Source: Fulvivirga marina
GTDB lineage: Bacteria; Bacteroidota; Bacteroidia; Cytophagales; Cyclobacteriaceae
Assembly: GCF_016775155.1 (NCBI RefSeq)
Contig: NZ_JAEUGD010000066.1
Coordinates: forward strand, 1,073,202 to 1,137,201
Length of the DNA: 64,000 nucleotides
Direction of reading: 5' to 3'
Shown in pieces: positions 47,752-64,000 of the stretch. The position numbers were made by a program, and so were the translations under genes. The first letter of the stretch is position 1. Every line of letters begins with the position of its first letter. The notes beneath the pieces are model-generated. The model was given only the letters and a program-made list of their open reading frames with translations. It ran no database searches and was not told the DNA's origin.

Positions 47752-50157
47752 TTATTCATACCTAAGCGACTTCACTGGATTAACTTTCGCGGCTTTTAAA
47801 GATTGGTAACTTACAGTCAGCCAGGCTATCAAAAAGGCCACCATCCCACTGATTAAAAATATCCACATGCTGATCTCTACCCGATTAGCAAAACCATTAA
47901 GCCACTGATCCATGGCATAATAAGCTGGATATATAGCCAACACAAAAGCTATAATGACTAGCTTCGCAAACTCTTTGGACATCAGCGAAGTCACACTCCA
48001 AACGCTTGCTCCCATTACTTTGCGAATGCCAATTTCCTTGGTACGCTGCTCAGCCATAAAGGCCGCCAAACCAAACAACCCAAGACAGGCTATGAATATA
48101 GCAATGATGGTAAAGACCGTAAAAACCATCCCTAACCTTTGCTCTGCTCTAAATAATGCATCATAATCTTCATCGAGGAATGAGTATTGAAGAGGTTCTC
48201 CCGGAGCATAGTTTTCCCACCTGCCCGCTATAGTATTGATCACTTCGTTCGGATTTTCTCCTGAAAATCTGGCATATAAAATATTGCCTTCTTTAGTGAG
48301 CTGAATTACAAGAGGCCTCACATTCATCTTCAAACTCTCGAAATTAAAGTCCTTAACAACCCCTACCACTCTCATTTCAACAGGCTGATCACCATTGAAG
48401 TTTATTATTTTTTCCTCTAATGGATTCTCCCATTCCAACTCTTTCACAGCAGCTTCATTCAGTACCACTGCACCCGAATCGGAAGGAAAATCTCTTGAAA
48501 AGAACCTTCCTTCAACCAGTTCAAAGTCAAGGGTTTTTAAGTGATCATAATCACCAAAATAGGTAGCCATAATATGGTCTCGCTCATCACCCACAGCCCT
48601 GAAAATAGTAGTGTTATTTACCCCCGGAACCATATTATTAGAATAGCTCGTACCCAAAATACCGGTACCAGCATCCAGATCATTTTTGAAGGCCATTTTA
48701 TTATTTTCCAGTCTGTCGGTATCTTCAATGATCAGGATATGCTCTTTATCAATACCCAGATTTTTATTCTGCACATATTGCAACTGCTGATATACAACCA
48801 CAGTACAGATGATAAGCACTATTGAAATCCAAAACTGAAATGTAACCAGGAAACTTCGTATAGAACCACTTTTCATACCTGCTCTTAATCTACCTTTCAA
48901 CACTTCCGTGATCTTAAAGCCAGTAAGATAAAATGCAGGATAACTCCCCGCCAAAATGCCTACAAACAACACGAGCGCTACTAAAACCCAGGCTATTGAA
49001 GGTTCGCCCAGTATGCCAAATGTTAAAGTCTTTCCTGATAACAAATTAAATGATGGTAATAGTACATAAACCACCCCAAGCGCCAGCAAGGCCGCACTAA
49101 TGGAGTAAATCATGGATTCAGTCAGAAACTGTGCAATGAGTGTACTTCTCAGCGAACCAAGCGTTTTTCTGAGACCTACTTCCTTAGCTCTACCTGCCGA
49201 CTTCGCTGTGGTCAGGTTCATGAAATTGATACAGGCTAGTATAACTATAAAAATGCCAATGCCGGCTAGTATAAAAACATATGATATATCACCTGGAGGT
49301 TCTGCTTCATCCTGCACCTCCGATTGAAGATGAATATCATACATAGGGAAACTATAATAGTCATAGATACCACCTTCAGCCCTGAACTCCTCTAACGATT
49401 TTCCCATAAACTCTTGCAGAACCGGAGTTACGTTTCGTTCCGTTATGGGCGCAAGCTTTTCATCCACACTTTTGGAGGTACCTTTTTCATTGAGCACATA
49501 GTAAGTGAACAAACTATTACTTAACCAATTGCCTCTATTCATCCAAGGAAAAGAGCTACTTGAAAGTAACGCATTAAATTTTAAATGAGAATCTCCCCTA
49601 CTATTCTCCATTACCCCCGTAATCTTATACTCAGTTTTATCATTACCGATAGACAGTGATTTATCCAGAGCAGACTCATCTCCAAAATATTTATGAGCCA
49701 ATGCTTCACTCAAAACCAGGCTATTAGGGTTTTTAAGTGCTGTTTCCGGATTTCCTTCCAGGAGTTTAAAGCTAAAAACGCTAAAGAAATTAGAGTCAGC
49801 AGCCATGATACCCTCCTCATTAAAGGCAAGGTCTCCATTACGGAATATCCACTCCCCCATTTCATTTACACGGGTGGCTTCTTCAACTTCAGGAATTTCC
49901 GCCACCAGAGCTTTTGCCATCGGAAAGCTGGTACTTGCCGTATAAATTTCCTGTCCCCCCAACTTCCCATGAAGGTTTACTCTGTATATCCGCTCTCCTT
50001 TGACATGAAAGTGATCATAGTTCAGCTCATCGTAAATATACATGGTTACGAACAAGCAGGCGGCGACACCTATCGTTAGACCCAATATATTAATAATTGA
50101 GAAAAACTTGTGTTTGGTTATGTTGCGCAAAGCAACCTTGATGTAATTTTTGACCAT
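47752..50157 (-). CDS. MacB/FtsX-type ABC transporter permease
   Basis: An 801-residue permease with a MacB_PCD N-domain (TM near 20-40, IINILGLTIGVAACLFV) and two FtsX domains (FKITEVLKGRLRAG and, at the end, EQRTKEIGIRKVMGASVWSVTSLMS and VSYQSLKAAKVNPVKSLRYE). About eight membrane segments are visible. Such paired permeases of about 800 residues are common in Bacteroidota. An ATPase gene is absent, so the ATPase must be elsewhere. It lies 71 bases downstream of a second permease of the same kind on the same strand, so the two are probably one transcript. The substrate is unknown. Confidence 0.92.
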   Translation of the reverse strand: MVKNYIKVALRNITKHKFFSIINILGLTIGVAACLFVTMYIYDELNYDHFHVKGERIYRVNLHGKLGGQEIYTASTSFPMAKALVAEIPEVEEATRVNEMGEWIFRNGDLAFNEEGIMAADSNFFSVFSFKLLEGNPETALKNPNSLVLSEALAHKYFGDESALDKSLSIGNDKTEYKITGVMENSRGDSHLKFNALLSSSSFPWMNRGNWLSNSLFTYYVLNEKGTSKSVDEKLAPITERNVTPVLQEFMGKSLEEFRAEGGIYDYYSFPMYDIHLQSEVQDEAEPPGDISYVFILAGIGIFIVILACINFMNLTTAKSAGRAKEVGLRKTLGSLRSTLIAQFLTESMIYSISAALLALGVVYVLLPSFNLLSGKTLTFGILGEPSIAWVLVALVLFVGILAGSYPAFYLTGFKITEVLKGRLRAGMKSGSIRSFLVTFQFWISIVLIICTVVVYQQLQYVQNKNLGIDKEHILIIEDTDRLENNKMAFKNDLDAGTGILGTSYSNNMVPGVNNTTIFRAVGDERDHIMATYFGDYDHLKTLDFELVEGRFFSRDFPSDSGAVVLNEAAVKELEWENPLEEKIINFNGDQPVEMRVVGVVKDFNFESLKMNVRPLVIQLTKEGNILYARFSGENPNEVINTIAGRWENYAPGEPLQYSFLDEDYDALFRAEQRLGMVFTVFTIIAIFIACLGLFGLAAFMAEQRTKEIGIRKVMGASVWSVTSLMSKEFAKLVIIAFVLAIYPAYYAMDQWLNGFANRVEISMWIFLISGMVAFLIAWLTVSYQSLKAAKVNPVKSLRYE

Positions 50158-50228
50158 TATGTTATTGTTGTTAATTGAGTACTCGTAAGACGCTATAAAC
50201 CAGCTAGAAGTTACACCCTGTCTCCTTT

Positions 50229-52604
50229 TTATTCATCTCTTAATGTATGTGCAGGACTCATAGATGCTGCATTGTACACCTTAAAGCCAACGGTTAAAGC
50301 AGAAACAATTGTGATCAGTGCAATGCCCGCCAAAAAGGTTATCATTCCCGCTCCTGTGTAATAAGTCCATATGCTGGCCATCAAGGAATCTACCATGTAA
50401 TAACTAGTCAGTGACCCCAGAAATGAAGCTATGACTAAAATGATGATGAACTGTTTATTCAATTTTTTTGCGATATTACCAACAGACGCCCCCAACACTT
50501 TCCTTACTCCAATTTCCTTCATTCTCTTTATGATGTTCAGAGATACCATGGTGAAGAGTCCTGATGCTGAGAGAAGAGTGGCTATTATTCCCAAGAATAT
50601 AAACAGCTTCAATATATTATTATTCACAGTGGCCGCCTCCTTCAACTCCTCATCCATATAACGACCATTATAAAGTCTGTTAGGAAACACTTCTCTCCAT
50701 TTAGACTCCATAAATTCATTAACTGCTACCAACTTATTAGCATCAGCTTTGACAAGTATGCGACTATACTCTTCGGGTTTATTTAGCCTCAACATAACCG
50801 GATCCACAGCATCCCAGAGTCCGTTACCATAATAATCTTTAAAAACACCTACTACATATAATTGCACGGTATCTCTCCATATCACTTTTTTACCAATAGC
50901 ATTATCCCATCCAAAAGCTGTCATCATAGTCTCATTCACAATCACGGATTCACTCCTATCCGTTTCCGAATCTCTTTTAAACTGCCTTCCCTCAAGCAGC
51001 GTCATTCCCATGATGTCCATGTAATTTTCGCTCACTTCCATAATATCTACCTCTCGCTCTGCACCTTCAAAGCGAACAGGATCATTGATATAGGTTGACA
51101 TAATATGGTGCTTTGTACCAGTTATAGCTTCTATATCACTATTTCCTGCCAGGGCATTTTTATAAACTTCATATTCATTTTCTCCATTGATATTGGTATA
51201 TATAACCCCTTGCCGGTCAAAGCCAAGATCTATCTCCTCCTGATATTTAGCATTTTGAATGAATGCTACCGCTGATATCAAAGCGATCAATGAAATGCTG
51301 TATTGGAGGGTTAGCAGCAATTTTGTAAAACCAGTAATACCGCCAAACTTTGTAGTACCTTTCAATATACTAGTTGGTTCAAAACTGCTGATATAAAAGG
51401 CTGGATAACTTCCTGCCAGTAGGCCTGTAACGATCAACAATCCAAACATAAAAAGAAAAAAACCTGCATTACCCAGGTAATCCATATTCAGTTCCATGAA
51501 TTCCCACATCTGGTTATAGGCTGGTACCAGTATCTCTGCCAGTAGAATAGCTACAATACCTGCTAAAAAACATAAGGTAAGATTTTCTGCCATGAACTGC
51601 CCAATCAACTGTTTACGACGACTCCCCATCACTTTACGGATACCTATTTCCTTCAACCGACGACTAGACATGGCTATGGCAGTATTGGTAAAGTTAAATA
51701 TAGCTATGAGTAACACCAGGAATGCCATAACAGCCGGCGCAACGACAGCGGCAGTGGGCAGGCTATTTCTAAACCAATGGTTCCGTACATCTTCCAACTC
51801 AGATCGGATAGCTATCCCCTCAAAGGGGTCGAGGTAAAACTCGGACACCATAAAATCTTCTTTAGCTTTGTTTTGGTTGGCTTTATACTTTTGAAGTTCA
51901 CTTTCTATGAACGGAATTTTAGACTTATCCTCCACCTCAATTAAAAGGGTATTCCAGTACTTCCAGTTACTTTCATCATACTCGTCATAAGCATCGAAAA
52001 AACTATCAAAATGAAAAAGCGCATCAAACTGTATACTAGAGTTTAAAGGCATTTTCTCGAATACTCCAGCAACAATAAATTCAAGTGTGCTGCTATCTAG
52101 CACCTGCGTTATTTGCTTTCCAAGTGCGTCCTCCTGTCCAAAATACTTAGTCGCCAGTTCGCTGCTAATAAATATCTTCGTTTTATCACCAAAGTCACTC
52201 TTAACGCCGGATTTCAACGGAAAATTAAAAAGGTCGAACAACCCCTCATCCGCATAGGCAATATCTGTCCTAAACAGTTCATCTTTGATTCTAATATTAC
52301 TCCCATAGGGAATATAGCGTATTACCCTGCCCACTCCGGCTATATTGTCACGTATACTTTCTCCCAACGGCATAGGGGCTATACCATTTTTAGTCTTATT
52401 GCCTTGAAAGTCTCTGATAAAGTTTACTCTGTAGACATTGCCTGCATTTACATGCTGCTGGTCATAACTTGCGTTGTAATCGTAGTTGATATATGCTACG
52501 ATACAACATGCCATTGCTATGCCCAGACCGAATACATTAATAATTACATAGGTCTTGCTCTTTAATAGGCTCCTAATCGTGATTTTGAGGTAGTTTTTCA
52601 GCAT
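50229..52604 (-). CDS. MacB/FtsX-type ABC transporter permease
   Basis: A 791-residue paralogue of the downstream permease, also with MacB_PCD (MLKNYLKITIRSLLKSKTYVIINVFGLGIAMAC) and two FtsX domains (SSRRLKEIGIRKVMGSRRKQLIGQFMAENL; IIKRMKEIGVRKVLGASVGNIAKKLNKQF; NAASMSPAHTLRDE). Overall similarity to its neighbour is moderate, so the pair is an old duplication. No ATP-binding subunit is nearby. Their place directly downstream of the lanthipeptide genes on the same strand allows a role in self-protection, but that is only a guess. Confidence 0.92.
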   Translation of the reverse strand: MLKNYLKITIRSLLKSKTYVIINVFGLGIAMACCIVAYINYDYNASYDQQHVNAGNVYRVNFIRDFQGNKTKNGIAPMPLGESIRDNIAGVGRVIRYIPYGSNIRIKDELFRTDIAYADEGLFDLFNFPLKSGVKSDFGDKTKIFISSELATKYFGQEDALGKQITQVLDSSTLEFIVAGVFEKMPLNSSIQFDALFHFDSFFDAYDEYDESNWKYWNTLLIEVEDKSKIPFIESELQKYKANQNKAKEDFMVSEFYLDPFEGIAIRSELEDVRNHWFRNSLPTAAVVAPAVMAFLVLLIAIFNFTNTAIAMSSRRLKEIGIRKVMGSRRKQLIGQFMAENLTLCFLAGIVAILLAEILVPAYNQMWEFMELNMDYLGNAGFFLFMFGLLIVTGLLAGSYPAFYISSFEPTSILKGTTKFGGITGFTKLLLTLQYSISLIALISAVAFIQNAKYQEEIDLGFDRQGVIYTNINGENEYEVYKNALAGNSDIEAITGTKHHIMSTYINDPVRFEGAEREVDIMEVSENYMDIMGMTLLEGRQFKRDSETDRSESVIVNETMMTAFGWDNAIGKKVIWRDTVQLYVVGVFKDYYGNGLWDAVDPVMLRLNKPEEYSRILVKADANKLVAVNEFMESKWREVFPNRLYNGRYMDEELKEAATVNNNILKLFIFLGIIATLLSASGLFTMVSLNIIKRMKEIGVRKVLGASVGNIAKKLNKQFIIILVIASFLGSLTSYYMVDSLMASIWTYYTGAGMITFLAGIALITIVSALTVGFKVYNAASMSPAHTLRDE

Positions 52605-52995
52605 GGTAATTTATTTGAGTTTGTTGACTATTGACCTGTTTGCCTTATTTCCTAAAGACTACCACACATGCCTGAAGGTTGCATAACCATAGCATACTTA
52701 TTTAACACAGTACTATGTCATACATAATAGTAATACGTAAAGAGTTGTAAAATGTTTTATATCAGCGGACTACTAAACCTTCAGACTGGGTAGTTCTATA
52801 AAAAATCAATGTATTTACGCCTGTGTAGTTTAAAAGCTTCTCTACAGACATGAGTAAAAAAGGGAAGGACAATATAATAGGTGAGTAATCACCTATTAGT
52901 GCAACTTCTATGATAGTTAGGCAATATCCATGGGATGCCTGCTGTGAGCAAACAGTTCCTTGCAAAGCTGAGCCATCGCTCAGCTTTGCTTTTTC
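52605..52995 (+). other. Intergenic region with an orphan terminator and a second hairpin
   Basis: About 390 bases between the permease gene and the cyclase gene, both on the minus strand. It contains a 10-bp palindrome TAATAGGTGA/TCACCTATTA at 52875-52884 and 52889-52898 with a 4-base loop, then the plus-strand terminator-like hairpin at 52962-52994. The longest frame, MSKKGKDNIIGE (starting at 52850), is too short to call. A small RNA on the plus strand ending at 52994 is possible but unproven. Confidence 0.4.
52962..52994 (+). terminator. Plus-strand terminator-like hairpin with no plus-strand gene
   Basis: GCAAAGCTGAG (52962-52972) pairs perfectly with CTCAGCTTTGC (52979-52989) across a 6-base loop and is followed by TTTTT (52990-52994). 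The U-tract exists only on the plus strand, while both neighbouring genes run on the minus strand. It therefore suggests a small plus-strand transcript, or it may simply act as a barrier. Confidence 0.6.
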
Positions 52996-54942
52996 TTATT
53001 GATGCACAACCGGAGAATGATCTATAAACAATATTCCCTGATGCAGCGCTTCAGTGATTTGATAAATTGTTACCTCTTTGACCTGATCAATCTCCGACTG
53101 CTCGGTAACTTCAAATTCATCAACCATTTCCACTATTACCTGTTCAACTCTATTTGGCTGCTCAAATTTTTTAATCACGGTGTATGCAAAATCGTTTAAT
53201 GGGAATTCTAATAAAAACTCTGGTGTTGGAATAAATATAGCATACTCTTCACCCTCATTATCTTTGGCAACCTCCTCTGGTAATTCAAGTAACACATGCT
53301 CTTCTGGCAACACCAGTTGCGTATGGATAAGCTCAGCCTCAGTCTTTAAGCATACCTGATTTTTCTCTATCTCTACAATTCTTCGTATCCTGTTATACGA
53401 ATGACTCTCTATGGCACTGTCTAGCTCTTCCTTTTTAAGCTCGTACTCCCACACTTGCTGAATAGCATCATCATCTTTGGCAGAAATCGCATTTTGAATG
53501 GCCTGCCTTAGTTTAAGCATAAACGAGCCTCCACCTTTAAGGATATTTAAATCAATATCTTTTTTGACTTTTTCGAATGTTAAGGGATAAAGACCATTGG
53601 CTAATCTGACAAAAACTCCCTCATAACCGGAGGCCAACTCTCCGTCAACTTTTCCACTAAATACTTGATTTAAATCTGGCTTCAGTATACTCGCTTTTTC
53701 CTGTTTTTCATCTGATAGCATCAAATAGAAGTAACCTATGCCACTATCTCCCATAAACAAACTAATATCATTATCAGTACCGGCAAATGAATACCCTGAA
53801 AGGTATTTCCCTTTTTCCGCGACATAATCAAGAGCCCTGTCCCCTGCCTGCCTAGCCATATCAATGTAGGTAGTATCCCCAAGGACTCTAGCTGCCTCCA
53901 GGAACAAAATGGCATTACCTCCTATTCCATGACAAAGTATGCATGATGCAACTGACATTTCACCATCAAGAGTTGCTATTCCCGTTTTTTCAACCGCTCT
54001 GTCGATATCTCTCTTGTATATATCATCCTTTAGCACCTCATATGCCCGTATTCTGGACAATCCTATCCCAGGCGCTCCATGACACCAGGCCGACATATCT
54101 CCAGGCAGCAAAAAGTAATCTTTCTCGCCGTTTAGATATTTATCTCTATTCTCATTCAATGTTTTTTCATCGTAAAACCCTCTTCTGAAATCCGGCCAGT
54201 TTTTAAACTCCTCATGAAAAAAGTGGTTTTCATAGGCAAAAGCTCTCTTGGCTATCCAGTAAAAACTTTCATTATCAAAATATTTACCCAGTTCAAGAAA
54301 GACGTAGCCAATTCCGGATGCACCATGCGAAAAACCACAAAGACCTTTAATGTTGGTACCTACTCGATCCCAATAAAAACCATGTGGAGTTATATTGGCA
54401 CGTTCAATTAATCGACGAGTATAACTTTCTATATTCTTAAGTACTCCCTCATCTCCGGTAGCTGCATGCAAGTGTAAAAGACATAATAATGCACCAGAAT
54501 ACCCATTGATCAGATCATCAACCTTGCGACTAGTATGTAAAAAAGCTTCACATCCCTCTGCTATCTTCAGGGCCTTAGCCTTATAACTTTCATCCTTCAG
54601 GTAATCGGCAAGAACCAGCATCAGGTATGAAACCCCCATTCTTCCGGTATAGAAAGCATAATATTCAGTGCTGTTGGTAGCACAATAGTTTTCCAGCCAC
54701 CGCGCCCCTTCAGTTACTGCCTCCAAATACTTATCATCATTTGTTCTTCGGTGGAGTTCCAAAAAGAAGTATACAATACCTGCTGTACCAGAGTACAAGC
54801 TTTCTGAAACCACCCATTGAATTTCAAAATCCCCTGTAGAAGTCATAGTTTTCCAGACATATCCCTCATCAGTTTTTTCAACTCTCCGGAGTATTTCATC
54901 TCCTATCCGTATCGCTTCCTCCAAATATTTATTTCTATCCAT
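52996..54942 (-). CDS. LanC-type lanthionine synthetase with RRE-like C-terminal extension
   Basis: This enzyme joins Cys thiols to dehydrated Ser/Thr to form (methyl)lanthionine rings. It has 648 residues. The cyclase part (about 1-412) has the alpha-toroid repeats GFSHGASGIGYVFLELG (203-219), the zinc ligands Cys287 in SAWCHGAPG and Cys337-His338 in ILCHGIGGN, and a last G-x-x-G repeat. Ordinary LanC proteins end here. Residues about 413-648 are extra; the last 65, from LNDFAYTVIKKFEQPNRVEQ to ITEALHQGILFID, look like a PqqD-type RiPP recognition element (inference from pattern). It overlaps the SpaB_C-like gene by 8 bases, so the two are translationally coupled. It is the last gene of the minus-strand lan operon. 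Confidence 0.9.
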   Translation of the reverse strand: MDRNKYLEEAIRIGDEILRRVEKTDEGYVWKTMTSTGDFEIQWVVSESLYSGTAGIVYFFLELHRRTNDDKYLEAVTEGARWLENYCATNSTEYYAFYTGRMGVSYLMLVLADYLKDESYKAKALKIAEGCEAFLHTSRKVDDLINGYSGALLCLLHLHAATGDEGVLKNIESYTRRLIERANITPHGFYWDRVGTNIKGLCGFSHGASGIGYVFLELGKYFDNESFYWIAKRAFAYENHFFHEEFKNWPDFRRGFYDEKTLNENRDKYLNGEKDYFLLPGDMSAWCHGAPGIGLSRIRAYEVLKDDIYKRDIDRAVEKTGIATLDGEMSVASCILCHGIGGNAILFLEAARVLGDTTYIDMARQAGDRALDYVAEKGKYLSGYSFAGTDNDISLFMGDSGIGYFYLMLSDEKQEKASILKPDLNQVFSGKVDGELASGYEGVFVRLANGLYPLTFEKVKKDIDLNILKGGGSFMLKLRQAIQNAISAKDDDAIQQVWEYELKKEELDSAIESHSYNRIRRIVEIEKNQVCLKTEAELIHTQLVLPEEHVLLELPEEVAKDNEGEEYAIFIPTPEFLLEFPLNDFAYTVIKKFEQPNRVEQVIVEMVDEFEVTEQSEIDQVKEVTIYQITEALHQGILFIDHSPVVHQ

Positions 54943-55969
54943 TGTTTACTGAATTTCTTAAAGCCTTAATACTTTCTCTTACCAAATACGCAAGATACCC
55001 TTCGTCACGGTTCATAATGCCCATTCTATTGTTGATCATGTGTATGTAACTGTCATAAATAGCCCACAACTCTTGCGTCTCGGCAGGCACTTCCTCATCT
55101 CTTTTTGATAAGTAGCGTTGGGGGGCAATAAGTTTTTTATCTTCCTGCAATGCTTGCAGGTCAGACTTTATACTTTTCATGTCCACAAGCCAATTATTCA
55201 GCCATTCCTGATCAAAACTTTGCCCCTCTTCAAATGCCTCCCACACAGTCTCAAAAAATGGAATGAGACTTTCTTTATGACCTTTAAAGTTTTTCTCAAA
55301 AGCTTTAAGTGTCTCCTCCTTTCTCTTTGCCAGTTCCTCCTTTGATATATCCTTCTCAAAAAAGTAATAGGCTCTGGGCAACCAGTTCTGAAACACATCT
55401 GAAAAGAACTTTGACGCTTCCTGCTGATCCATGCCAACACCATGAGCAAAACCCAGATGAAGCTGTATAGCAGCTCCAAGAGCTCTGTTATAATCCCAAG
55501 CCTCAAGTCCATCTTCTACAATGGCCAGAGTAGCGTCTGATGAGGCCTGAAATTGTCGTTCAGAAACCTGTAAAGCATGCTCCCCTCCGTAACGTTCTGT
55601 TTCGGGTTCATATTCAATGAATTGCACAGAATTATTTGGGTACCATTTATATTCCTCAGAGGCTTCCTTTAACCAATCGGGATCCTGCCTTTCGGAAGGA
55701 ACATTTTTGAAGTATTTATTAAAATGATCTATAATCAGTGGTTTTACCTTCTTTTCAAGCACATTGGGATTACCTTTAAACCTTAGCCTGATATGTGGGC
55801 CCTTCTCCCAATATCTGATAAAAAAGTATTGATCGGCGAGTTTTTCTCCCATTACCTGGTCTATCAAAGGTTTTACTCCTTGAATAAGGAACTCTTCCCA
55901 AGGCTCAGCATAGTACAGAAAAGCTGCCAACCATTTTTTATCAGGTGTGGAATTGGTTTTTTGAGACAT
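54935..55969 (-). CDS. Thiopeptide-type bacteriocin biosynthesis (SpaB_C/LanB C-terminal) protein
   Basis: A free-standing elimination domain of a split class I dehydratase. It has 344 residues matching the Lant_dehydr_C family: KKWLAAFLYYAEPWEEFLIQGVKPLID, then YFFIRYWEKGPHIRLRFKGNP (about residues 45-68, the conserved R-x-x-G-x-H-x-R-x-R pattern), and ALGAAIQLHLGFAHGVGMD. In LanB this domain removes glutamate from glutamylated Ser/Thr to give dehydroalanine or dehydrobutyrine. It starts 10 bases after the dehydratase gene and overlaps the LanC gene by 8 bases. Such a split of LanB into two proteins is typical of pinensin-like clusters of Bacteroidota. Confidence 0.9.
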   Translation of the reverse strand: MSQKTNSTPDKKWLAAFLYYAEPWEEFLIQGVKPLIDQVMGEKLADQYFFIRYWEKGPHIRLRFKGNPNVLEKKVKPLIIDHFNKYFKNVPSERQDPDWLKEASEEYKWYPNNSVQFIEYEPETERYGGEHALQVSERQFQASSDATLAIVEDGLEAWDYNRALGAAIQLHLGFAHGVGMDQQEASKFFSDVFQNWLPRAYYFFEKDISKEELAKRKEETLKAFEKNFKGHKESLIPFFETVWEAFEEGQSFDQEWLNNWLVDMKSIKSDLQALQEDKKLIAPQRYLSKRDEEVPAETQELWAIYDSYIHMINNRMGIMNRDEGYLAYLVRESIKALRNSVNNG

Positions 55970-55979
55970 TATTTTCTTT

Positions 55980-58955
55980 TTATTTATTATACCATTGAAC
56001 TACAAACTCCGATACGAACCTGGAGTCATCAACCTTAAGCATCTGTTTTGAGTTAGGAAGCATTTCCACTATTTTCATACTGGCTGGCACCCTATCGATC
56101 AGCTTTTCCAGCAAATGGACCAACAACGGATTGGTAAAGTCAATATACTGTGGTTTGTAATCATCTCTAGTCAGTTTTTTCATAGCATCTTCATCCATAC
56201 CCTCATCTCCCCAGCGGTTAGTATTAACAAACACAAATACTTCATCAGGTATGTTATTATCCTTTCTCCAGATGTTGACATTCTTGAAGTACTGCCAATC
56301 GCTGTCGTTCGGGTGTCTCTGAGGCAATAGCGCTTTAGGAACCAGCCATGATTTCCTTTGTAAAACCAACACATCTTTATACATGATCCGAGGCAATACA
56401 CTTATTTTATACTTTGCAGCTGATTTCTCCTTATCCTCGTCGGGTGTATTAAACTGATTAACAACATTCACTAAAGGCTGGGTAAACAGGTATTCTGCTT
56501 TTGTAAACCTTTCAAGGAGCTGGAACAGTTGCGACCTGCCTCCATGCCCCTGAAAACCCAGGTCAAAAACATAAGCTCTTTTGCCTGTAGCCTTATGAAC
56601 CAGGTTTAGTTCCCCCGCATCAGCATTATACATGACACAAAAGTCGGTGATGGGAATTTGCTTATCCGCAGGCAAAGAATTATGCCCCCCTGGCATCCAT
56701 ACCTCATAAGGCATAAGTGTAGGGTGCAGGTTAGCGTTGAAGTATGATGCATCACAATCTTCAATAAAAATGGAATCACCATCGCACAGCTCAACATTCC
56801 TGTTCCTGATTTCCTCCGTTAGTTCATGCTGAAAAATGTGAAGAAAGCGGCTCATCATTTTGCCATAACCAGGGAATGTACTATTAACACTGGCCTTAAG
56901 CTTACCCTCTTCATAATAGAACTGTAAAAATGACCCATAAGAATTGGCTTCTCCAGCAGTATCTATGAATCCAACTTTCTCATTAGCATGCTGAACAGGA
57001 GTCTGGTCAACAATTATCTCATTCTCATTCCATTGCACCGTCTTGCTAAGCTGTTCCTTCACTGCTGTTCTCCAATTTTGAACCCTCTCCTTCTTCTCTT
57101 TCCCTCCTGGTAATTCAAACTCATCAACCGTATCCTTTTCCTGATCTTTATCTACACGCTGTTTAGCATCCTGTTCGCCTTTAACCTTATCGGAACCACC
57201 TGCTTCTTTTATTTGCTTTTGCTTTTCACGAGCTTTCTTCTTTCTCTGCTCTTCCCGCTCCTTTTCAGGCTTCTTAAACTCCCTGAAGTAATCTTCATAA
57301 AAGGTAAGTAAATCCACCTTTTCTTGCTCACCGTACTTTTTTAGAAAGTATACCTGCATCTTCAACTTTTCATCCTCATTGCCCTTGAAAAACCTCATTT
57401 CATTGAGCAACTCATTGAGTTGGGAAATAACCTCATGTATTTCCCCTTTACTCAATAATGCATTGACCTCACGAGTAGTGTCCTCGTAAAATATCTGCTC
57501 AGGTTTCATAGAAAAGTAAGTAGAGGTCTCATGTTTAAAGGTTACTTCCTCTTCCTTCCCTTCTTCTTCAACCTCCTTTTCTTTCTTGTCATCTTTTTTT
57601 TTCGTCTCCTCTTCCTTTTTCTTTTTTGCCTCTTCTATTAACTCCTTCTCTGTCTTTCTTTCATCTGCAGGCAAACCAGCTTCTTCGTGTATCTTCATAA
57701 AGATAGCCCTAAACTCATCATATGCATTTTGTAGTAAATCGTGTCGACCTTTCACATCACTTTCGGCATATTTGTTCCCCAGTTTTCTGATAGCCTTCAG
57801 CGTTTCCAATAGTTCATTTATATACTTTACACCTTGTTTCGCCTGACTACCCAAAGCTTCAATAAGTTTTACATCCCAGTCAGGGTCAACACCAGAAACT
57901 CCTATATTATATTCCAGAAGGCCGAACTCCACCAATTGCTTAACATAACTCTCAACTTCCTCTGCAGGAGCATCAATATCATTTTGCAGACTTTCAATAA
58001 GATCTAAAAACCTGATGCCTTCGGTATACTCTTGAACTACGCCCGCTATATGCTCTACAACAGGGTTATAAGGTATACGCTGGAAGGATTCAATATTATT
58101 ATTATTAGTAAGATATAAAAAGTGATCACCTCGATTTTGGTAGGTTGGGTTACAACGCAGAGGAAACAAAATATAGGAAGGTCTATAGTTTTTTAGCAGG
58201 TCCATTATAAACTTCAACAAATAGTTGTTTAACCTGATATGGCCTGTCACCTGTTGCCCATTCACCGTATTGATCTGTATACCTTGCATACTTTCATCTA
58301 TTTTACCAATAGACAGATTAGTAAATGTACTGAAGGGTGACGTTTTCGCATACATACGTGTCAGATACTGAAGCAGACTCTGTTCAACCTGGTGTTCCTT
58401 CTTTCTGAATTTATCCACTGGTCTTTTTTGGAAAGAATCCAGACGATTTAATAATGTTCGACTAGACAAAATCAACCCCTTCTTAAGAAGATCTGAGTTA
58501 ACCAGTTTCTTTAAATCCTCTCTACCCATTTTGAGCTCATCCGCGTAGATGGACTCCCCAGCCTGAGCTTTCTCTTTTAGTTCCTTTAGCAATTGAACAT
58601 AACTTTGAAGATCTTCTTTAAGTAATTGCGGAAGCACCTCAAGAGCCTTATTCAATTTACTATTTTTCAGCTTCCTCTCATTGAATATATCTCTTCTCAG
58701 ATTCTGAACTATATTCTGAACTTCAGCACTTTTGCTGCTACTTATAAACTCAAATAGACTATCACACAATACTTCCTTTGATTCTTTTTGCTTTTGATGA
58801 AGCTCGCATATGGCATTCACTATTTCATCTGATTCAGGAAATTTCAACCGTGCCCATTCTTCAAACGAGTCACCTCCAACCCTGATCAGGGCATATGGAA
58901 ATAGTTGCATAGTTTTTTTACTATTAGTAGTGTAGGCTGTTAACGTGTTACCCAT
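55980..58955 (-). CDS. Lantibiotic dehydratase, glutamylation (LanB N-terminal) protein
   Basis: This protein attaches glutamate from Glu-tRNA to Ser/Thr of the precursor. From this start it has 991 residues. FPYALIRVGGDSFEEWARLKFP at the N-terminus and RMYAKTSPFSTFTNLSIG (near residue 203 of the 994-codon frame) are family landmarks, followed by LPRIMYKDVLVLQRKSWLVPKALLP and RWGDEGMDEDAM near the C-terminus. Two very charged Lys/Glu-rich segments (about residues 436-475 and 563-632 in the long frame) are not part of the conserved fold. Starts are uncertain: TTG at 58964, ATG at 58955, and ATG at 58910, just before QLFPYALIRVGG, which suits the family best. It leads the lan operon and lacks the elimination domain. 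Confidence 0.92.
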   Translation of the reverse strand: MGNTLTAYTTNSKKTMQLFPYALIRVGGDSFEEWARLKFPESDEIVNAICELHQKQKESKEVLCDSLFEFISSSKSAEVQNIVQNLRRDIFNERKLKNSKLNKALEVLPQLLKEDLQSYVQLLKELKEKAQAGESIYADELKMGREDLKKLVNSDLLKKGLILSSRTLLNRLDSFQKRPVDKFRKKEHQVEQSLLQYLTRMYAKTSPFSTFTNLSIGKIDESMQGIQINTVNGQQVTGHIRLNNYLLKFIMDLLKNYRPSYILFPLRCNPTYQNRGDHFLYLTNNNNIESFQRIPYNPVVEHIAGVVQEYTEGIRFLDLIESLQNDIDAPAEEVESYVKQLVEFGLLEYNIGVSGVDPDWDVKLIEALGSQAKQGVKYINELLETLKAIRKLGNKYAESDVKGRHDLLQNAYDEFRAIFMKIHEEAGLPADERKTEKELIEEAKKKKEEETKKKDDKKEKEVEEEGKEEEVTFKHETSTYFSMKPEQIFYEDTTREVNALLSKGEIHEVISQLNELLNEMRFFKGNEDEKLKMQVYFLKKYGEQEKVDLLTFYEDYFREFKKPEKEREEQRKKKAREKQKQIKEAGGSDKVKGEQDAKQRVDKDQEKDTVDEFELPGGKEKKERVQNWRTAVKEQLSKTVQWNENEIIVDQTPVQHANEKVGFIDTAGEANSYGSFLQFYYEEGKLKASVNSTFPGYGKMMSRFLHIFQHELTEEIRNRNVELCDGDSIFIEDCDASYFNANLHPTLMPYEVWMPGGHNSLPADKQIPITDFCVMYNADAGELNLVHKATGKRAYVFDLGFQGHGGRSQLFQLLERFTKAEYLFTQPLVNVVNQFNTPDEDKEKSAAKYKISVLPRIMYKDVLVLQRKSWLVPKALLPQRHPNDSDWQYFKNVNIWRKDNNIPDEVFVFVNTNRWGDEGMDEDAMKKLTRDDYKPQYIDFTNPLLVHLLEKLIDRVPASMKIVEMLPNSKQMLKVDDSRFVSEFVVQWYNK

Positions 58956-59112
58956 AAGGTGCAATTTTAGTGTTTTTCACCCTTCAAAATCCTAATGGTA
59001 TTCAGGGATATTGAACTTTAACAAGAACTGAGGAATATTCTATTTTCCCCATGTATCTATGTCTAAAGTTATGAACTAAGACTTTTATTCTATAGTTTAT
59101 TTGGGTTTTATA

Positions 59113-59146
59113 TAAAAAAACAAAGCAGGTTAAAATAACCTGCTTT
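59113..59146 (-). terminator. Terminator downstream of the HlyD-family gene
   Basis: On the minus strand AAAGCAGGTTA (59146-59136) and TAACCTGCTTT (59132-59122) pair across 3 bases and are followed by GTTTTTTTAT. It lies between the HlyD gene and the dehydratase gene, which suggests that the lan genes have their own promoter, or that the hairpin attenuates read-through. Confidence 0.75.
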
Positions 59147-59180
59147 AAAATTTCTATTATTTAAGAGAGGATAAAATTGA

Positions 59181-60479
59181 CTAATTGACCCTGTCGATAA
59201 TGTTCCTTAATTGATTAAATACCCTCTCTATCAACCTCTTATCTTTAGTTATAATCTCAGCTGTTCCTTGCATTTCCTGCTTAAAATCCAGCTGTTTATT
59301 ATAAGTACTTTTCAATCCATCAGGCAGACTTATTCTGATACTATACAAATTATCTCTAGGCACAAGCGATATGGACTCTACCTTACCTATAACCATACCA
59401 TACTCATTTGAAGGGTAATTATTGATCATAATATTCACTTTCTGACCGACCGCTACCTTACCTGACCCCTGTACCGGCATTGCCACGTTTCCTATCACAT
59501 TTTCCGACTCTGGCACAACAGTCATCACTTCCTCACCTGCCTGAACATACTGATTATCACTCCAGAACTTTGAAAATGCCACTTTTCCTTCAACAGGTGT
59601 TAACAACAGGAAGTTTTGCTTCCATGCTATAAGGTCACTTTCCAATTTCTCAAGCGCTTCAACCATGCTCGTGAACATTTGATCCGTTTCCTGCTCCTCT
59701 TTCAGTATGAGTTCGTTAATCTGCCCTTGCAACTGTGCAATTTGAATGCTATTCTGAATAATGGATGATTCAATACTCTCCTTATTCCTTTTGTTCTGCA
59801 AATGACTAGCCTTAGACCGGTTCATAACTGGTTTGGTACCCGCGCCGCGTTGATATAACAGAGAATCATCATGGTAAATAGTCTCTGATATTTTTATTTC
59901 CTCATCCACCAATGCCAGCTGTTCATTTAGGCCTTTGTTTAAGGCTCTATAGTACTTCACTCGTTTACTAAGTGCTTCTCTTTGATTATGGTAAAAAGAA
60001 ATAGCAATGTATCGTTTTGCATCTTCTACAATTGAACTAAACGAAGAATATGTACTTTGCAGAGCACCTAAATTCAGAGACTCATCCAACTTAATGGCCT
60101 CAATATCTATGGGCCTTCTATATATTAATGTCCGTATTTTTTCAAGTTGCCTGTCCAGCTTTAATACATCTTCCGTAGAAGCCGGGTTTTCAATTACACC
60201 CAGCAATGCCTCTTCTTTTACATATTGTTTATCCTCAACCTGCAAGCTAATCCGCCCGTTAGACCTGGCTACCAGGTGTACCGGAGGAGTTTGTGTAGTT
60301 AGTACGACCTGGGCAGCTACAGTGTCAGGGTATTTTATGAACCAACTCGCTGCTATTAATATGAGTATAATTATGAAAACGAGGGTAATACCCCACCTAA
60401 TCAGCCAATGTGGTATATGGCTCAGTATTTCTTGTACTTCCTCGCTCCTAAGTTGTATTTGTTCTTCAGTGTTAGGCAT
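59181..60479 (-). CDS. HlyD-family secretion adaptor
   Basis: A 432-residue membrane-fusion protein for type I secretion-like export, inserted by one transmembrane helix (RWGITLVFIIILILIAASWFI, about 28-48) with a large periplasmic part. Two lipoyl-like half motifs (HLVARSNGRISLQVEDKQYVKEEALLGVI and, after the coiled coil, VEGKVAFSKFWSDNQYVQAGEEVMTVVPES) flank long helices. ATG 60479 is chosen because the in-frame ATG at 60551 would add 24 residues before the usual cytoplasmic start. In Bacteroidota such adaptors work with peptidase-ABC exporters of ribosomal peptides. No such ABC gene lies in the window. A terminator follows. Confidence 0.9.
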   Translation of the reverse strand: MPNTEEQIQLRSEEVQEILSHIPHWLIRWGITLVFIIILILIAASWFIKYPDTVAAQVVLTTQTPPVHLVARSNGRISLQVEDKQYVKEEALLGVIENPASTEDVLKLDRQLEKIRTLIYRRPIDIEAIKLDESLNLGALQSTYSSFSSIVEDAKRYIAISFYHNQREALSKRVKYYRALNKGLNEQLALVDEEIKISETIYHDDSLLYQRGAGTKPVMNRSKASHLQNKRNKESIESSIIQNSIQIAQLQGQINELILKEEQETDQMFTSMVEALEKLESDLIAWKQNFLLLTPVEGKVAFSKFWSDNQYVQAGEEVMTVVPESENVIGNVAMPVQGSGKVAVGQKVNIMINNYPSNEYGMVIGKVESISLVPRDNLYSIRISLPDGLKSTYNKQLDFKQEMQGTAEIITKDKRLIERVFNQLRNIIDRVN

Positions 60480-60777
60480 AGCTCTTTTATGGGGTACCAA
60501 AATACATATTGCTCTCCTAGTGTAAAAATCTATTAGTAAGTTTATGTTCAAAGTATCAGTTTTTAGGGATAAGCTATAGCTTCTTGATTAGCTGATAAAA
60601 ATCCATACCTGAATACGGCTATTTTCAATTTTACCACATGACAGGTATTTTTAAATTACAACCCTTAAAAACCCGCATTTACACACCTTGTAAGTTTAAG
60701 ATCTAACTTTCCACGGCCTCCAATTGAAGTATTTGCTATATTAGCCCTATTATTTAGCACATTTCAATCCCTGTACT

Positions 60778-61440
60778 ATGCTTGATTCTACGGCAAAAAC
60801 CATAGAACTGATGATCGTAGATGATCATAAATTATTCCTTGATGGTATAGTTTCCCTATTGAAAGATTCTCCAAAAATATCAATTGCTGCTTGTGCCAGC
60901 GATGGAAATCAAGCACTGGAACTACTCCAGCAGAATGTCAATATCAATGTATTGATCACCGACATAAGTATGCCTAACCTCAATGGAGAAGAGTTATGCA
61001 AAGAGGTAAAGAAAAAATACCCCAATGTTCACATTTTAGTGCTTTCAATGCATAGTGATAGCAAAAGCATAAAGAGAATACTTAAAAATGGAGCAACCGG
61101 TTATATACTTAAAAATACGGGTAAAGAAGAGCTAATTGAAGCCATAGAACATGTAGCCAATGGGCAGGCATACTTTAGTGAAAGTGTGAAAAACAATATA
61201 ATGGCCGGAATTACAGGCATGGAAGAAAGTGATGAAAATGTAAACGTAAGGCTTACAAAACGCGAGGTTGAAATATTAAAGTTAATATCTTCTGAATTTA
61301 CTACCAACCAAATAGCTGACACGCTTTTTATAAGCCTGCACACAGTTGAAAGCCACCGAAAGAATATCATGCGCAAGACAAAGGCCAAAAACATGGCCGG
61401 ACTTATTAAGTATGCTGTTAAAGCCGGAATAGTAGAATGA
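60778..61440 (+). CDS. NarL/FixJ-type response regulator
   Basis: A 220-residue regulator with a receiver (1-125; Asp62 in LITDISMPNLNG, Lys in GYILKNTGKEEL) and a LuxR-type HTH (TKREVEILKLISSEFTTNQIADTLFISLHTVESHRKNIMRKTKAKNMAGLI). It overlaps the TPR histidine kinase gene by four bases (ATGA), so the two make a coupled two-component system. It sits between the lan biosynthesis genes and the precursor genes, which suggests control of that system. The binding site cannot be named. Confidence 0.94.
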   Translation: MLDSTAKTIELMIVDDHKLFLDGIVSLLKDSPKISIAACASDGNQALELLQQNVNINVLITDISMPNLNGEELCKEVKKKYPNVHILVLSMHSDSKSIKRILKNGATGYILKNTGKEELIEAIEHVANGQAYFSESVKNNIMAGITGMEESDENVNVRLTKREVEILKLISSEFTTNQIADTLFISLHTVESHRKNIMRKTKAKNMAGLIKYAVKAGIVE

Positions 61441-63431
61441 ATAGACTTAAAATACTCATTCTGAGCGGATTCATACTTTGGAACATGATAGTGAGTGCGC
61501 AAAATAAGGCTATTGATAGTCTTAACCATCTAATTGAGAATAAAAAAATAAGCGATTCATTAAGAATTGAAGCTATAGTAGAGTTATCCTCCATACTGCG
61601 ATATTCCAACTTTGAGGAGGCCATAAAAGTAAACAATAAAGCGTTGGTAGAAAGTCGAAGGGTCAAACTGACCTCAACTGAAGCCTCGGCTTATATCACA
61701 CGAGCCCTTATTCATGCCCAAACAGGGAACCTGGATTCTGCAAAACAGTTTTGCCAAGATGCTATAGCATTATCGAAACGTATTGCGGACGACCTGCATA
61801 TGGCTTTGGCCTACAATGTTCTTGGCTCTGTAAATCTCTCACAAGGGAATTATGCCAACTCCTTGCGAGCATATATGGATGGTTTAGAAAGGTTTGAATC
61901 AATTTCTCACGAAAGCGGGACAGCTGCAACATTGAACAGAATTGGCAACTTTTACCTGAAAAGAAAACATTATAACAACTCTCGGCATTACTATGAACAG
62001 TCTCTTTCTGTTTTTGAAAAATTAAAAAGATATGATCAAGTTACCGGAATCCTGAACAACATAGGTGTTTCATACTATCAGGAGAATAACTTCTCTGAGG
62101 CATTAGAGTATTTCTCCAGATCCATTAAAATACTTGATGAAATTAATATGCCTGAAAGACTCGCCATTAGAGAGTTAAATATAGGAAAAACAAATACTCA
62201 TCTCGAAAAATATCATGAGGCAGATCAATATCTAAAAAAGGCACTGGATCACTCAAACCAATACAATGACAAAAAAGTAAAGTGCCAATCTCTTCTAAAC
62301 CTAGGCATACTCAAAAGACTACAACATGACAACACCAAGGCTATCGCCTACCTTCAGGAAGGATTAACGTTGGCCAAAAGCATGCATGACCATGATACCG
62401 AAATAGAGTTTTATGAAACAATTGCTAAATCATATGCTCGACTTAACAACTATAAACAGGCGTATAACTACTATCAAAAGTTTGACTTATTAAAAGACAG
62501 TCTACTTAACCTGGAAAAAGACCGTGAAGTACTCATACTTCAAAACCAATTTGAAGCCAAACAGAATGAGCAAAAGATATCTATACTTCAACACGAAGCT
62601 GAAAAGAAGAATATTATCCTTTTAGCGTTGGTTATTGGCTCCATCCTGCTTATGCTTTCAATGGTCCTGGTATTGATAAATTACAACAATAAACAGAGGA
62701 GTCTAAGGCTAATACATACTCAAAAAGAAGAAATTAGTCGTCAAAAAATAACAGAATTACTTAAAGATCAGGAGCTCAACTCTATTAAAAACAAACTTGA
62801 AGGCCAGGAAAACGAAAGAAAAAGGGTTGCACAGGAACTTCACGATGGTATTGGCGGCACCTTAGCCAGTATAAAGATGAATCTTCTTAGCCTCAAAACT
62901 GAAGATACCCCCCTAAATGAAAGGTTAACTGATATTACTTTTAAGTTAGATAATGCTTGCGAAGAGGTACGAATGATTTCTCATAACTTAATACCACCTA
63001 TATTACATAATTCCGCATTAACAGAAGTAATTAAAAACTTTGTCGACGAGATTGTTGGCAACCGTGAAATAGTAGTTAATTATGAGTTCTACCCAAAAAA
63101 ACAGATTGAGGCTATTGATAAAAACATTCAGGTTGATATTTACAGGATTATACAGGAATTAGTAACAAATGCAATTAAACATGCTAAAGCCAGTGAAATC
63201 AGTATTTACTTAACCATGCATGATGATTACGTCAACCTAATGGTTGAGGATGATGGAACAGGGTTCAGAAACGATGGCAAACAAACTGGTATAGGACTAA
63301 AAAACATTCAGTCACGCGTTGCTGCTCTGGATGGAAAAATCACCATAGACACCAGTATTGGCAAAGGGACAAATATTATTATTGACCTTTCATTACCTCA
63401 TAGCAAGGAAGTTATCTCTCAAATAAGTTAG
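61437..63431 (+). CDS. TPR-containing sensor histidine kinase (HisKA_3 type)
   Basis: A 664-residue kinase with a signal peptide (1-21, MIVSAQNKA), six or more TPR motifs (about residues 85-350, e.g. LAYNVLGSVNLSQGNYANSLRAY) in the periplasm, one membrane span (393-415) and a cytoplasmic coiled coil. The HisKA_3 domain has His469 in VAQELHDGIGGTLASIKMNLLSL and the HATPase has VTNAIKHAKASE and VEDDGTGFRNDGKQTGIGLKN. It is coupled to the LuxR-type regulator. The TPR part probably recognises a peptide or protein signal, possibly from the peptide encoded just downstream (inference). Confidence 0.93.
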   Translation: MNRLKILILSGFILWNMIVSAQNKAIDSLNHLIENKKISDSLRIEAIVELSSILRYSNFEEAIKVNNKALVESRRVKLTSTEASAYITRALIHAQTGNLDSAKQFCQDAIALSKRIADDLHMALAYNVLGSVNLSQGNYANSLRAYMDGLERFESISHESGTAATLNRIGNFYLKRKHYNNSRHYYEQSLSVFEKLKRYDQVTGILNNIGVSYYQENNFSEALEYFSRSIKILDEINMPERLAIRELNIGKTNTHLEKYHEADQYLKKALDHSNQYNDKKVKCQSLLNLGILKRLQHDNTKAIAYLQEGLTLAKSMHDHDTEIEFYETIAKSYARLNNYKQAYNYYQKFDLLKDSLLNLEKDREVLILQNQFEAKQNEQKISILQHEAEKKNIILLALVIGSILLMLSMVLVLINYNNKQRSLRLIHTQKEEISRQKITELLKDQELNSIKNKLEGQENERKRVAQELHDGIGGTLASIKMNLLSLKTEDTPLNERLTDITFKLDNACEEVRMISHNLIPPILHNSALTEVIKNFVDEIVGNREIVVNYEFYPKKQIEAIDKNIQVDIYRIIQELVTNAIKHAKASEISIYLTMHDDYVNLMVEDDGTGFRNDGKQTGIGLKNIQSRVAALDGKITIDTSIGKGTNIIIDLSLPHSKEVISQIS

Positions 63432-63534
63432 TACATACCTGAAAACCGTTATTTTTTTGTTTACCTGAAAACAGCCAGATATTCCTCCCTCATAAAGTTG
63501 TAAATTTCAGAAACCTAATACATTATTGTGCGTT

Positions 63535-63755
63535 ATGAAAAAAGAAGATTAAGCCTTAATGCATTATAGGTACAAAGTTACATTACCAGTCTGAACAATG
63601 CCATATACATTAAAGGTGGTAGAATTTCAAATAATGATCAATTAGACGATTCGGAAGTAGATGACAGCTTTATAGACCCAACGCCCTTGAATAGTATTAG
63701 CCGTTTAAAGACCGTAATCTCAGAATTTAACACATATCAACCGTCGTATTTATGA
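63535..63755 (+). pseudogene. Decayed pinensin-type lanthipeptide precursor
   Basis: As written the ATG at 63535 gives five residues and a stop. If the six-A run after the ATG had seven A, the frame would read MKKRRLSLNAL, a TAG codon (63567-63569), then VQSYITSLNNAIYIKGG and a 44-residue tail, ending with TGA at 63753-63755. The leader aligns position by position with that of the next gene (MKKRNLKLESLKIKSFITS), with Lys12 replaced by the TAG. So two independent lesions, one indel and one nonsense, are present. The tail after KGG has no Cys. The stop overlaps the ATG of the intact precursor (ATGA), so both once formed a coupled tandem. Sequencing error cannot explain both lesions easily. Confidence 0.7.
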
Positions 63756-63910
63756 AAAAGCGAAACCTCAAACTGGAATCATTGAAAATTAAAAGTTTTA
63801 TAACTTCTGAAGAGAGCAAACATATCAAAGGTGCTGGGTCAGAAGTTGAACCTACAACAACTATGCCCTACAGGGTGAGTAGTCTTAAGATTTACTGTAA
63901 GAGCATATAA
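63752..63910 (+). CDS. Pinensin-type class I lanthipeptide precursor
   Basis: A 52-residue peptide. The leader MKKRNLKLESLKIKSFITSE carries the LKxKSFxTS pattern seen in pinensin-family leaders of Bacteroidota (family memory), followed by HIKGAG (24-29), a double-Gly-like cleavage region. The core, about residues 30-52, is SEVEPTTTMPYRVSSLKIYCKSI. It has several Ser/Thr (30, 35-37, 43, 44, 51) for dehydration but only one Cys (49), so at most one ring, most simply to Ser43, Ser44 or Thr35-37. The gene lies 320 bases after the TPR kinase and is followed by a terminator. It is the best candidate substrate of the dehydratase and cyclase at 52996-58955. Confidence 0.82.
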   Translation: MKKRNLKLESLKIKSFITSEESKHIKGAGSEVEPTTTMPYRVSSLKIYCKSI

Positions 63911-63943
63911 AATTTAAACTCTCAACGTATTACAAAAAAGAGG

Positions 63944-63979
63944 CCGTCTCAAAAGTCATTTTGGGACGGTTTTCTTTTT
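63944..63979 (+). terminator. Terminator after the lanthipeptide precursor genes
   Basis: CCGTCTCAAAA (63944-63954) pairs with TTTTGGGACGG (63959-63969), one G-T wobble, across 4 bases, followed by TTTTCTTTTT. It lies 33 bases after the precursor stop. The GAGGCCGTCTCAAAAGTC wording also resembles the ends of some IS elements in Bacteroidota (recalled only), so an IS-derived hairpin is an alternative. Confidence 0.72.
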
Positions 63980-64000
63980 CAACAGATTTAGATGTTTTTA

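Follow-up and report, generated by a model that had tools for sequence, protein, structure and literature searches.

A class I lanthipeptide enzyme set of Fulvivirga marina and its scattered pinensin-type leader genes: a putative class I counterpart of the prochlorosins

The prochlorosins and synechococsins are class II lanthipeptides for which one enzyme (ProcM or SyncM) serves scattered precursor genes with double-glycine (GG) leaders, 29 and 79 in number (PMC10783134; publications are cited here by PubMed Central number and from their accessible parts). For class I, the split LanB, the GG leaders and the LanM-resembling LanC proteins of Bacteroidetes have already been published (PMC7268733), and the product of the pinensin system is two-component with two methyllanthionine rings (PMC13060382). 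PedA15.2 of Pedobacter lusitanus, which like the system described here is of class I and from Bacteroidetes, was processed with the GG protease LahT150 (PMC12328550), and a lanthipeptide class is given, with no detail on precursors in the accessible text, among the 16 biosynthetic gene clusters of Fulvivirga kasyanovii (PMC12565237). No report of scattered class I lanthipeptide precursors was found in those parts of the literature that are openly accessible. Here we describe a class I locus of Fulvivirga marina situated in the window, i.e. the whole stretch of 64,000 nucleotides that was analysed, which is the final 64 kb of contig C63 (NZ_JAEUGD010000066.1) in a 6.78-Mb assembly of 69 contigs (genome G000). 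We consider it rather probable that a single enzyme set modifies the precursors of the cluster together with some twelve others whose genes lie elsewhere in the genome. With slightly less assurance, we propose that the system is a class I counterpart of the prochlorosins, in which a split LanB and an RRE-bearing LanC would produce a combinatorial lanthipeptide library from up to tens of scattered genes, part of them with an orphan RNA, and which would, as part of the same joint proposal, reach over Fulvivirga, other Cytophagales and even Acidobacteriota and Aminicenantes.

The F. marina system shares with the prochlorosins and synechococsins a conserved leader, hypervariable cores and many unlinked precursor genes with a GG leader (C1:45446 being without GG). 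It differs in its components, which are there a class II synthetase and Nif11-type leaders and here a two-protein LanB, a LanC with an RRE-like domain and a pinensin-type leader; moreover, modification of a precursor pool has been demonstrated for the prochlorosins, whereas it is deduced for the window system. A class II LanM-type enzyme was considered and rejected, since the genome's single PF05147 match is the 648-aa LanC and the LanB domains lie on separate proteins; the system may therefore be said to work like the prochlorosins without being one. Domains of the PF05147 type are also present in LanM, LanKC and LanL. As PF05147 and PF04738 give one match each in the whole genome, a second LanC-type cyclase was not found in it. 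The features of class I that we found are the LanB glutamylation and elimination domains, a LanC with C-C-H ligands and a precursor core with Ser/Thr and Cys. The leader model NF038180, the separate glutamylation and elimination proteins and the LanM-like Bacteroidetes LanC are shared with the pinensin system of Chitinophaga (PMC7268733), but the present system differs in that most of its leader genes are unlinked to the cluster and that the core encoded within the cluster contains six Cys and a stretch of eight Gly.

Searched with NF038180 ('leader_pinensin') at E<=0.001, the genome yields 14 genes spread over ten contigs; two belong to the cluster and 12 lie elsewhere, and 13 of the 14 are outside the window. 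Judged by eye in eleven stretches (one of them around a sub-threshold match), the neighbours of the scattered leaders are ordinary-looking chromosomal genes, and two of the 12 scattered genes adjoin each other on contig C6. In the complete genome G014, three among the 18 matches listed of 19 are within 25 kb of LanC, the others being spread across 7 Mb. As the genome has one set of enzyme genes and, on ten contigs, fourteen genes with one type of leader, a single enzyme set likely makes a library of ring peptides from mostly unlinked genes. Cluster-based mining reaches seven genes from LanC (PMC7268733), and scattered class I precursors would escape it because it stops a few genes from LanC.

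Among the relatives, G001 has a contig that is letter-identical to a record of F. kasyanovii JCM 16186 (loci L032 and L180). Sequence stretches are likewise shared by G002 and G007 with records of, respectively, F. imtechensis AK7 and F. sediminis 2943. These relatives are of the same genus as the window genome, which makes the host a Fulvivirga. Twelve of the 14 precursors have a counterpart in G014 whose core scores higher than at least 199 of 200 shuffles. In these 12 pairs, identity amounts to 302 of 353 residues in the leader and 331 of 423 in the core, and 48 of 50 Cys, 62 of 67 Ser/Thr (as either) and 224 of 302 other residues are retained, the Ser/Thr measure being laxer than identity and gaps penalising the Cys and core figures only. 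When the precursor on C38 is excluded, Cys retention is 44/45. The pooled ratio of non-synonymous to synonymous substitution rates (dN/dS) is about 0.09 for the leader and for the core, a rough value with dS near or above 1. In six genomes, Cys account for 10-12% of the core residues. Within one genome the cores, most of them rich in Cys, are highly variable; across species they are conserved, Cys most of all.

The leader was found together with a particular form of LanC. In a comparison set of 58 genomes, which includes G000, the leader is present in 13 and a LanC match in 16, all 13 being within the 16; the leader is absent from the 42 genomes in which LanC gave no match. Each of the 13 leader genomes has a long-form LanC of the window type (split over two frames in G014), and in the three genomes with LanC and no leader (G024, G025 and G030) the LanC frames, of 408-457 aa, are too short for the extra domain described below. 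Leader matches number 14 in G000, 22 in G001, 31 in G002, 19 in G014, 87 in G027 and 19 in G033, with a single match each in G004, G006, G007, G009, G013, G051 and G052; PF05147 has one match in G000, G014 and G033, two in G001 and G002, five in G027 and G452 and nine in G462. In a phylum sample of 395 genomes, the leader occurs in four, the N-terminal LanB domain (LanB N, PF04738) in 35 and both in two (G000 and G439). A window-type LanC is present in three of these leader genomes (G000, G088 and G439) and absent from G337, and PF04738 has no match in G088 or G337. The leader thus seems to be tied to the window type of LanC and not to LanB generally, because 33 of the 35 LanB N genomes have no leader. 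When genomes were chosen by their window-type LanC, 18/18 carried the leader in 1-44 copies, including metagenome-assembled genomes (MAGs) of Acidobacteriota and Aminicenantes; this set was drawn from 20 of 39 LanC loci, is a one-sided selection, and includes G449, G464 and G465, which repeat G033, G439 and G088 at the same coordinates. The MAGs concerned (L188, L207, L209; bins as given) have a long window-type LanC with 10 and 44 leader matches.

The extra domain of this LanC, at residues 530-648, resembles RRE/PqqD domains in its predicted fold and differs from them in its C-terminal placement on LanC. The fold is that of a predicted model, for which Foldseek gave no match at E<=0.001. PF05402 was found at E<=1 in three of 20 members (best E 0.0012); this model recovers RREs of a few classes only (PMC7470986). 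No LanC-RRE fusion was found in the accessible parts of PMC7470986 or PMC12710340. From the predicted structure, we suggest that the RRE-like domain of LanC may bind the leader.

The initial annotation had described the locus as complete-looking, which does not hold: the contig ends inside a repeat, and another contig, C58, begins with the main precursor and the exporter. The repeat to which the terminal bases of the window belong matches the genome 17 times, and nine or more of these matches lie no further than 100 bases from the end of a contig. No exporter ABC gene was seen among the open reading frames (ORFs) listed for window part 48000-64000. In G014, whose genome is complete, the genes run from the exporter through the precursor, the three mini-precursors, the kinase, the regulator, HlyD, LanB and the LanB elimination protein to LanC. 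The alignment of C63 with G014 stops at one edge of a short stretch; that of C58 starts on the other edge with C58 base 84 and continues past the exporter and the genes next to it as far as base 12,000, which leaves about 140 bp of G014 between the two alignment ends. Since C63 and C58 flank this one stretch, we assign the missing exporter and the 83-aa precursor to C58 (Table 1).

Table 1. Features of the lanthipeptide locus in the window and of its continuation on contig C58
Feature	Position	Strand	Evidence or remark
LanC-like cyclase, 648 aa	52996..54942	-	PF05147 204.8 bits, E 1.9e-60
LanC C-terminal domain, residues 530-648	52999..53355	-	predicted fold like leader-binding RRE/PqqD domains
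LanB elimination protein, separate, 344 aa	54935..55969	-	PF14028 155.9 bits (cut-off 24.4), E 2.9e-45
LanB glutamylation protein, separate, 994 aa	55980..58964	-	PF04738 129.6 bits (cut-off 28), E 1.4e-37
HlyD-type membrane adaptor of exporter	59181..60551	-	PF13437 42.3 bits (cut-off 22.2)
Response regulator, LuxR-type DNA-binding domain	60778..61440	+	PF00072, PF00196
TPR sensor histidine kinase	61437..63431	+	PF13424, PF07730, PF02518
Broken precursor gene	about 63535..63755	+	leader match 19.5 bits; in-frame TAG, frame shift
Intact 52-aa minor precursor, one Cys (putative)	63752..63910	+	NF038180 'leader_pinensin' 31.7 bits (cut-off 24)
Repeat end, insertion-sequence-like	63940..64000	+	label from matching inverted end on C58 alone
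Main in-cluster precursor, 83 aa (putative)	C58:86-352	-	NF038180 42.3 bits; outside window
C39-type ABC exporter	C58:499-2715	-	PF03412, PF00664, PF00005 (C39 peptidase, ABC membrane, ATPase); outside window

The enzymes, adaptor and regulators named in the initial annotation were all recovered by their families. The LanB N-terminal protein (with a TTG start as listed and a K/E-rich insert) and the SpaB_C-like elimination protein are separate polypeptides, both above the model cut-offs, as is the HlyD adaptor, and the genes of the LuxR regulator and of the TPR histidine kinase coupled to it overlap by 4 nt. The LanC cyclase has both zinc-ligand motifs, CHG at residues 287 and 337 (C287, C337-H338), in line with the C-gap-CH zinc-ligand triad of LanC (PMC10352776). 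Its best NCBIfam model is that of LanM (TIGR03897; 259 bits, under the 304-bit cut-off), which agrees with a published remark on Bacteroidetes class I LanCs (PMC7268733). The LanC homologues of G009, G051, G006 and G013 (L040-L043) are without the C-C-H zinc ligands, WCHG and CHG being replaced by WTHG/WAHG and LQG/TNG/ANG, and yet each of them is accompanied by a split LanB and a single leader gene. Downstream of lanC, at 47752-52604, the window encodes two large proteins resembling, by eye, paired permeases, and similar ORFs are found at the equivalent place in G002 and G014.

The precursors required more revision. A pinensin-family leader had been recognised beside the split LanB and LanC, and the 52-aa ORF indeed passes the leader model. 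Of the two small precursor genes that had been announced, the 52-aa one is intact, with a single Cys, and the upstream one is broken when compared with G014, where its counterpart is an open frame (L034 3190-3402(-)); the middle one of the three mini-precursors of G014 has no aligned counterpart in our contigs. The 52-aa peptide may be a working minor product, as its core is similar to that of a G014 ORF (15 of 24 residues identical) with a core pN/pS of 0.22. It had been taken for the main product, a role which by sequence appears to belong to the precursor on C58 that adjoins the exporter, the 52-aa ORF being a minor paralogue. The C58 precursor core contains six Cys, seven Ser/Thr and eight consecutive Gly, and is identical at 50 of 52 positions with G014 and at 41 of 52 with G001. 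Similar cores with the glycine stretch are found in G001, G004 and G007, and in the last two this precursor is the sole leader gene.

In the mechanism that we propose, the RRE-like domain of LanC would bind the leader of a precursor, the two LanB proteins would glutamylate core Ser/Thr from Glu-tRNA and then eliminate, and LanC would add Cys thiols. The C39-type exporter with HlyD would then cut after the GG motif and export the product, the two-component pair would control the cluster, and the DUF805b RNA (RF02914), directly upstream of the start codon, would likely control the expression of a subset of the precursors. This element precedes three of the 14 leader genes in G000 and three among the 18 matches listed in G014, as well as the single precursor in G006, G009, G013 and G051; it was not found ahead of the single precursor in G004, G007 and G052. 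It sits 25-53 nt before the leader match, for a chance expectation of at most 1.4e-3 per genome. DUF805b also precedes GG-leader peptides of another type in G026 and G031, which have no LanC or leader matches, and other small genes in G016, a genome without LanC match (L263, L264 and L256-L261 for these three genomes). As other small genes also have it upstream, DUF805b is likely a shared but unspecific control element. No paper on DUF805b or a DUF805 riboswitch was found in the searchable literature.

Several observations weigh against this proposal of one enzyme set with many scattered substrates. We infer the modification in trans of the scattered precursors from the genes alone. The gene on C38 (C38:24222) is probably broken, because it has no in-frame ATG ahead of the leader, and the leader gene C1:45446 has neither Cys nor GG. 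In the RRE-like domain, a methyltransferase chain was top-ranked in one fold comparison, and PF05402 scores 15.8 bits, below its 23.4-bit cut-off. The relatives do not count as independent cases, since a single genus supplies four of the six multi-precursor genomes; moreover, PF05147 matches more than once in G001, G002 and G027. To these may be added the 33 LanB N genomes without leader and two further cases, G337 and G014, which also bear on another reading: the leader could serve GG export in general, in which case the scattered Cys-rich peptides would be secreted unmodified, disulfide-bonded or modified by other enzymes, and LanBC would serve the in-cluster precursors only. Indeed, G337 (L276-L279) has five Cys-rich leader-type peptides, which look real from their sequences, with neither a LanC nor a PF04738 match, G014 keeps its 19 leader matches though its lanC is in two frames (L034 12002-13947), and DUF805b precedes other GG peptides in G026 and G031. 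A general export role nevertheless seems unlikely to us, if far from negligible, given that every one of the 13 leader genomes has a LanC match and that no leader was found in the 42 genomes without one, that the cores retain Ser/Thr besides Cys, and that one model scores both the in-cluster and the scattered leaders.

Two other explanations have very little in their favour. A self-contained antifungal cluster of pinensin-like type, with the 52-aa peptide as its main precursor, would fit the leader match of this peptide, its place in the cluster and the partial conservation of its core in G014, but the single Cys of the peptide, the nearly invariant six-Cys core next to the exporter and the status of the C58-type precursor as sole leader gene in G004 and G007 make this very improbable. 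We give equally little credit to the idea that the locus is decaying and the system out of function: the broken mini-precursor, the repeat inserted at the cluster, the scattered gene without in-frame ATG and the divided lanC of G014 might suggest it, whereas every enzyme frame in the window is open, the repeat sits between convergent genes, and the pooled core dN/dS of the precursors is low.

If one LanB/LanC set does accept such different cores, the system would offer a natural, Glu-tRNA-dependent means of producing libraries of cyclic peptides, and another solution to set beside ProcM. With a shared leader and an extra LanC domain, the question of how one enzyme handles many substrates would become directly testable. 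Finally, the link with DUF805b provides a possible physiological context for this orphan RNA.

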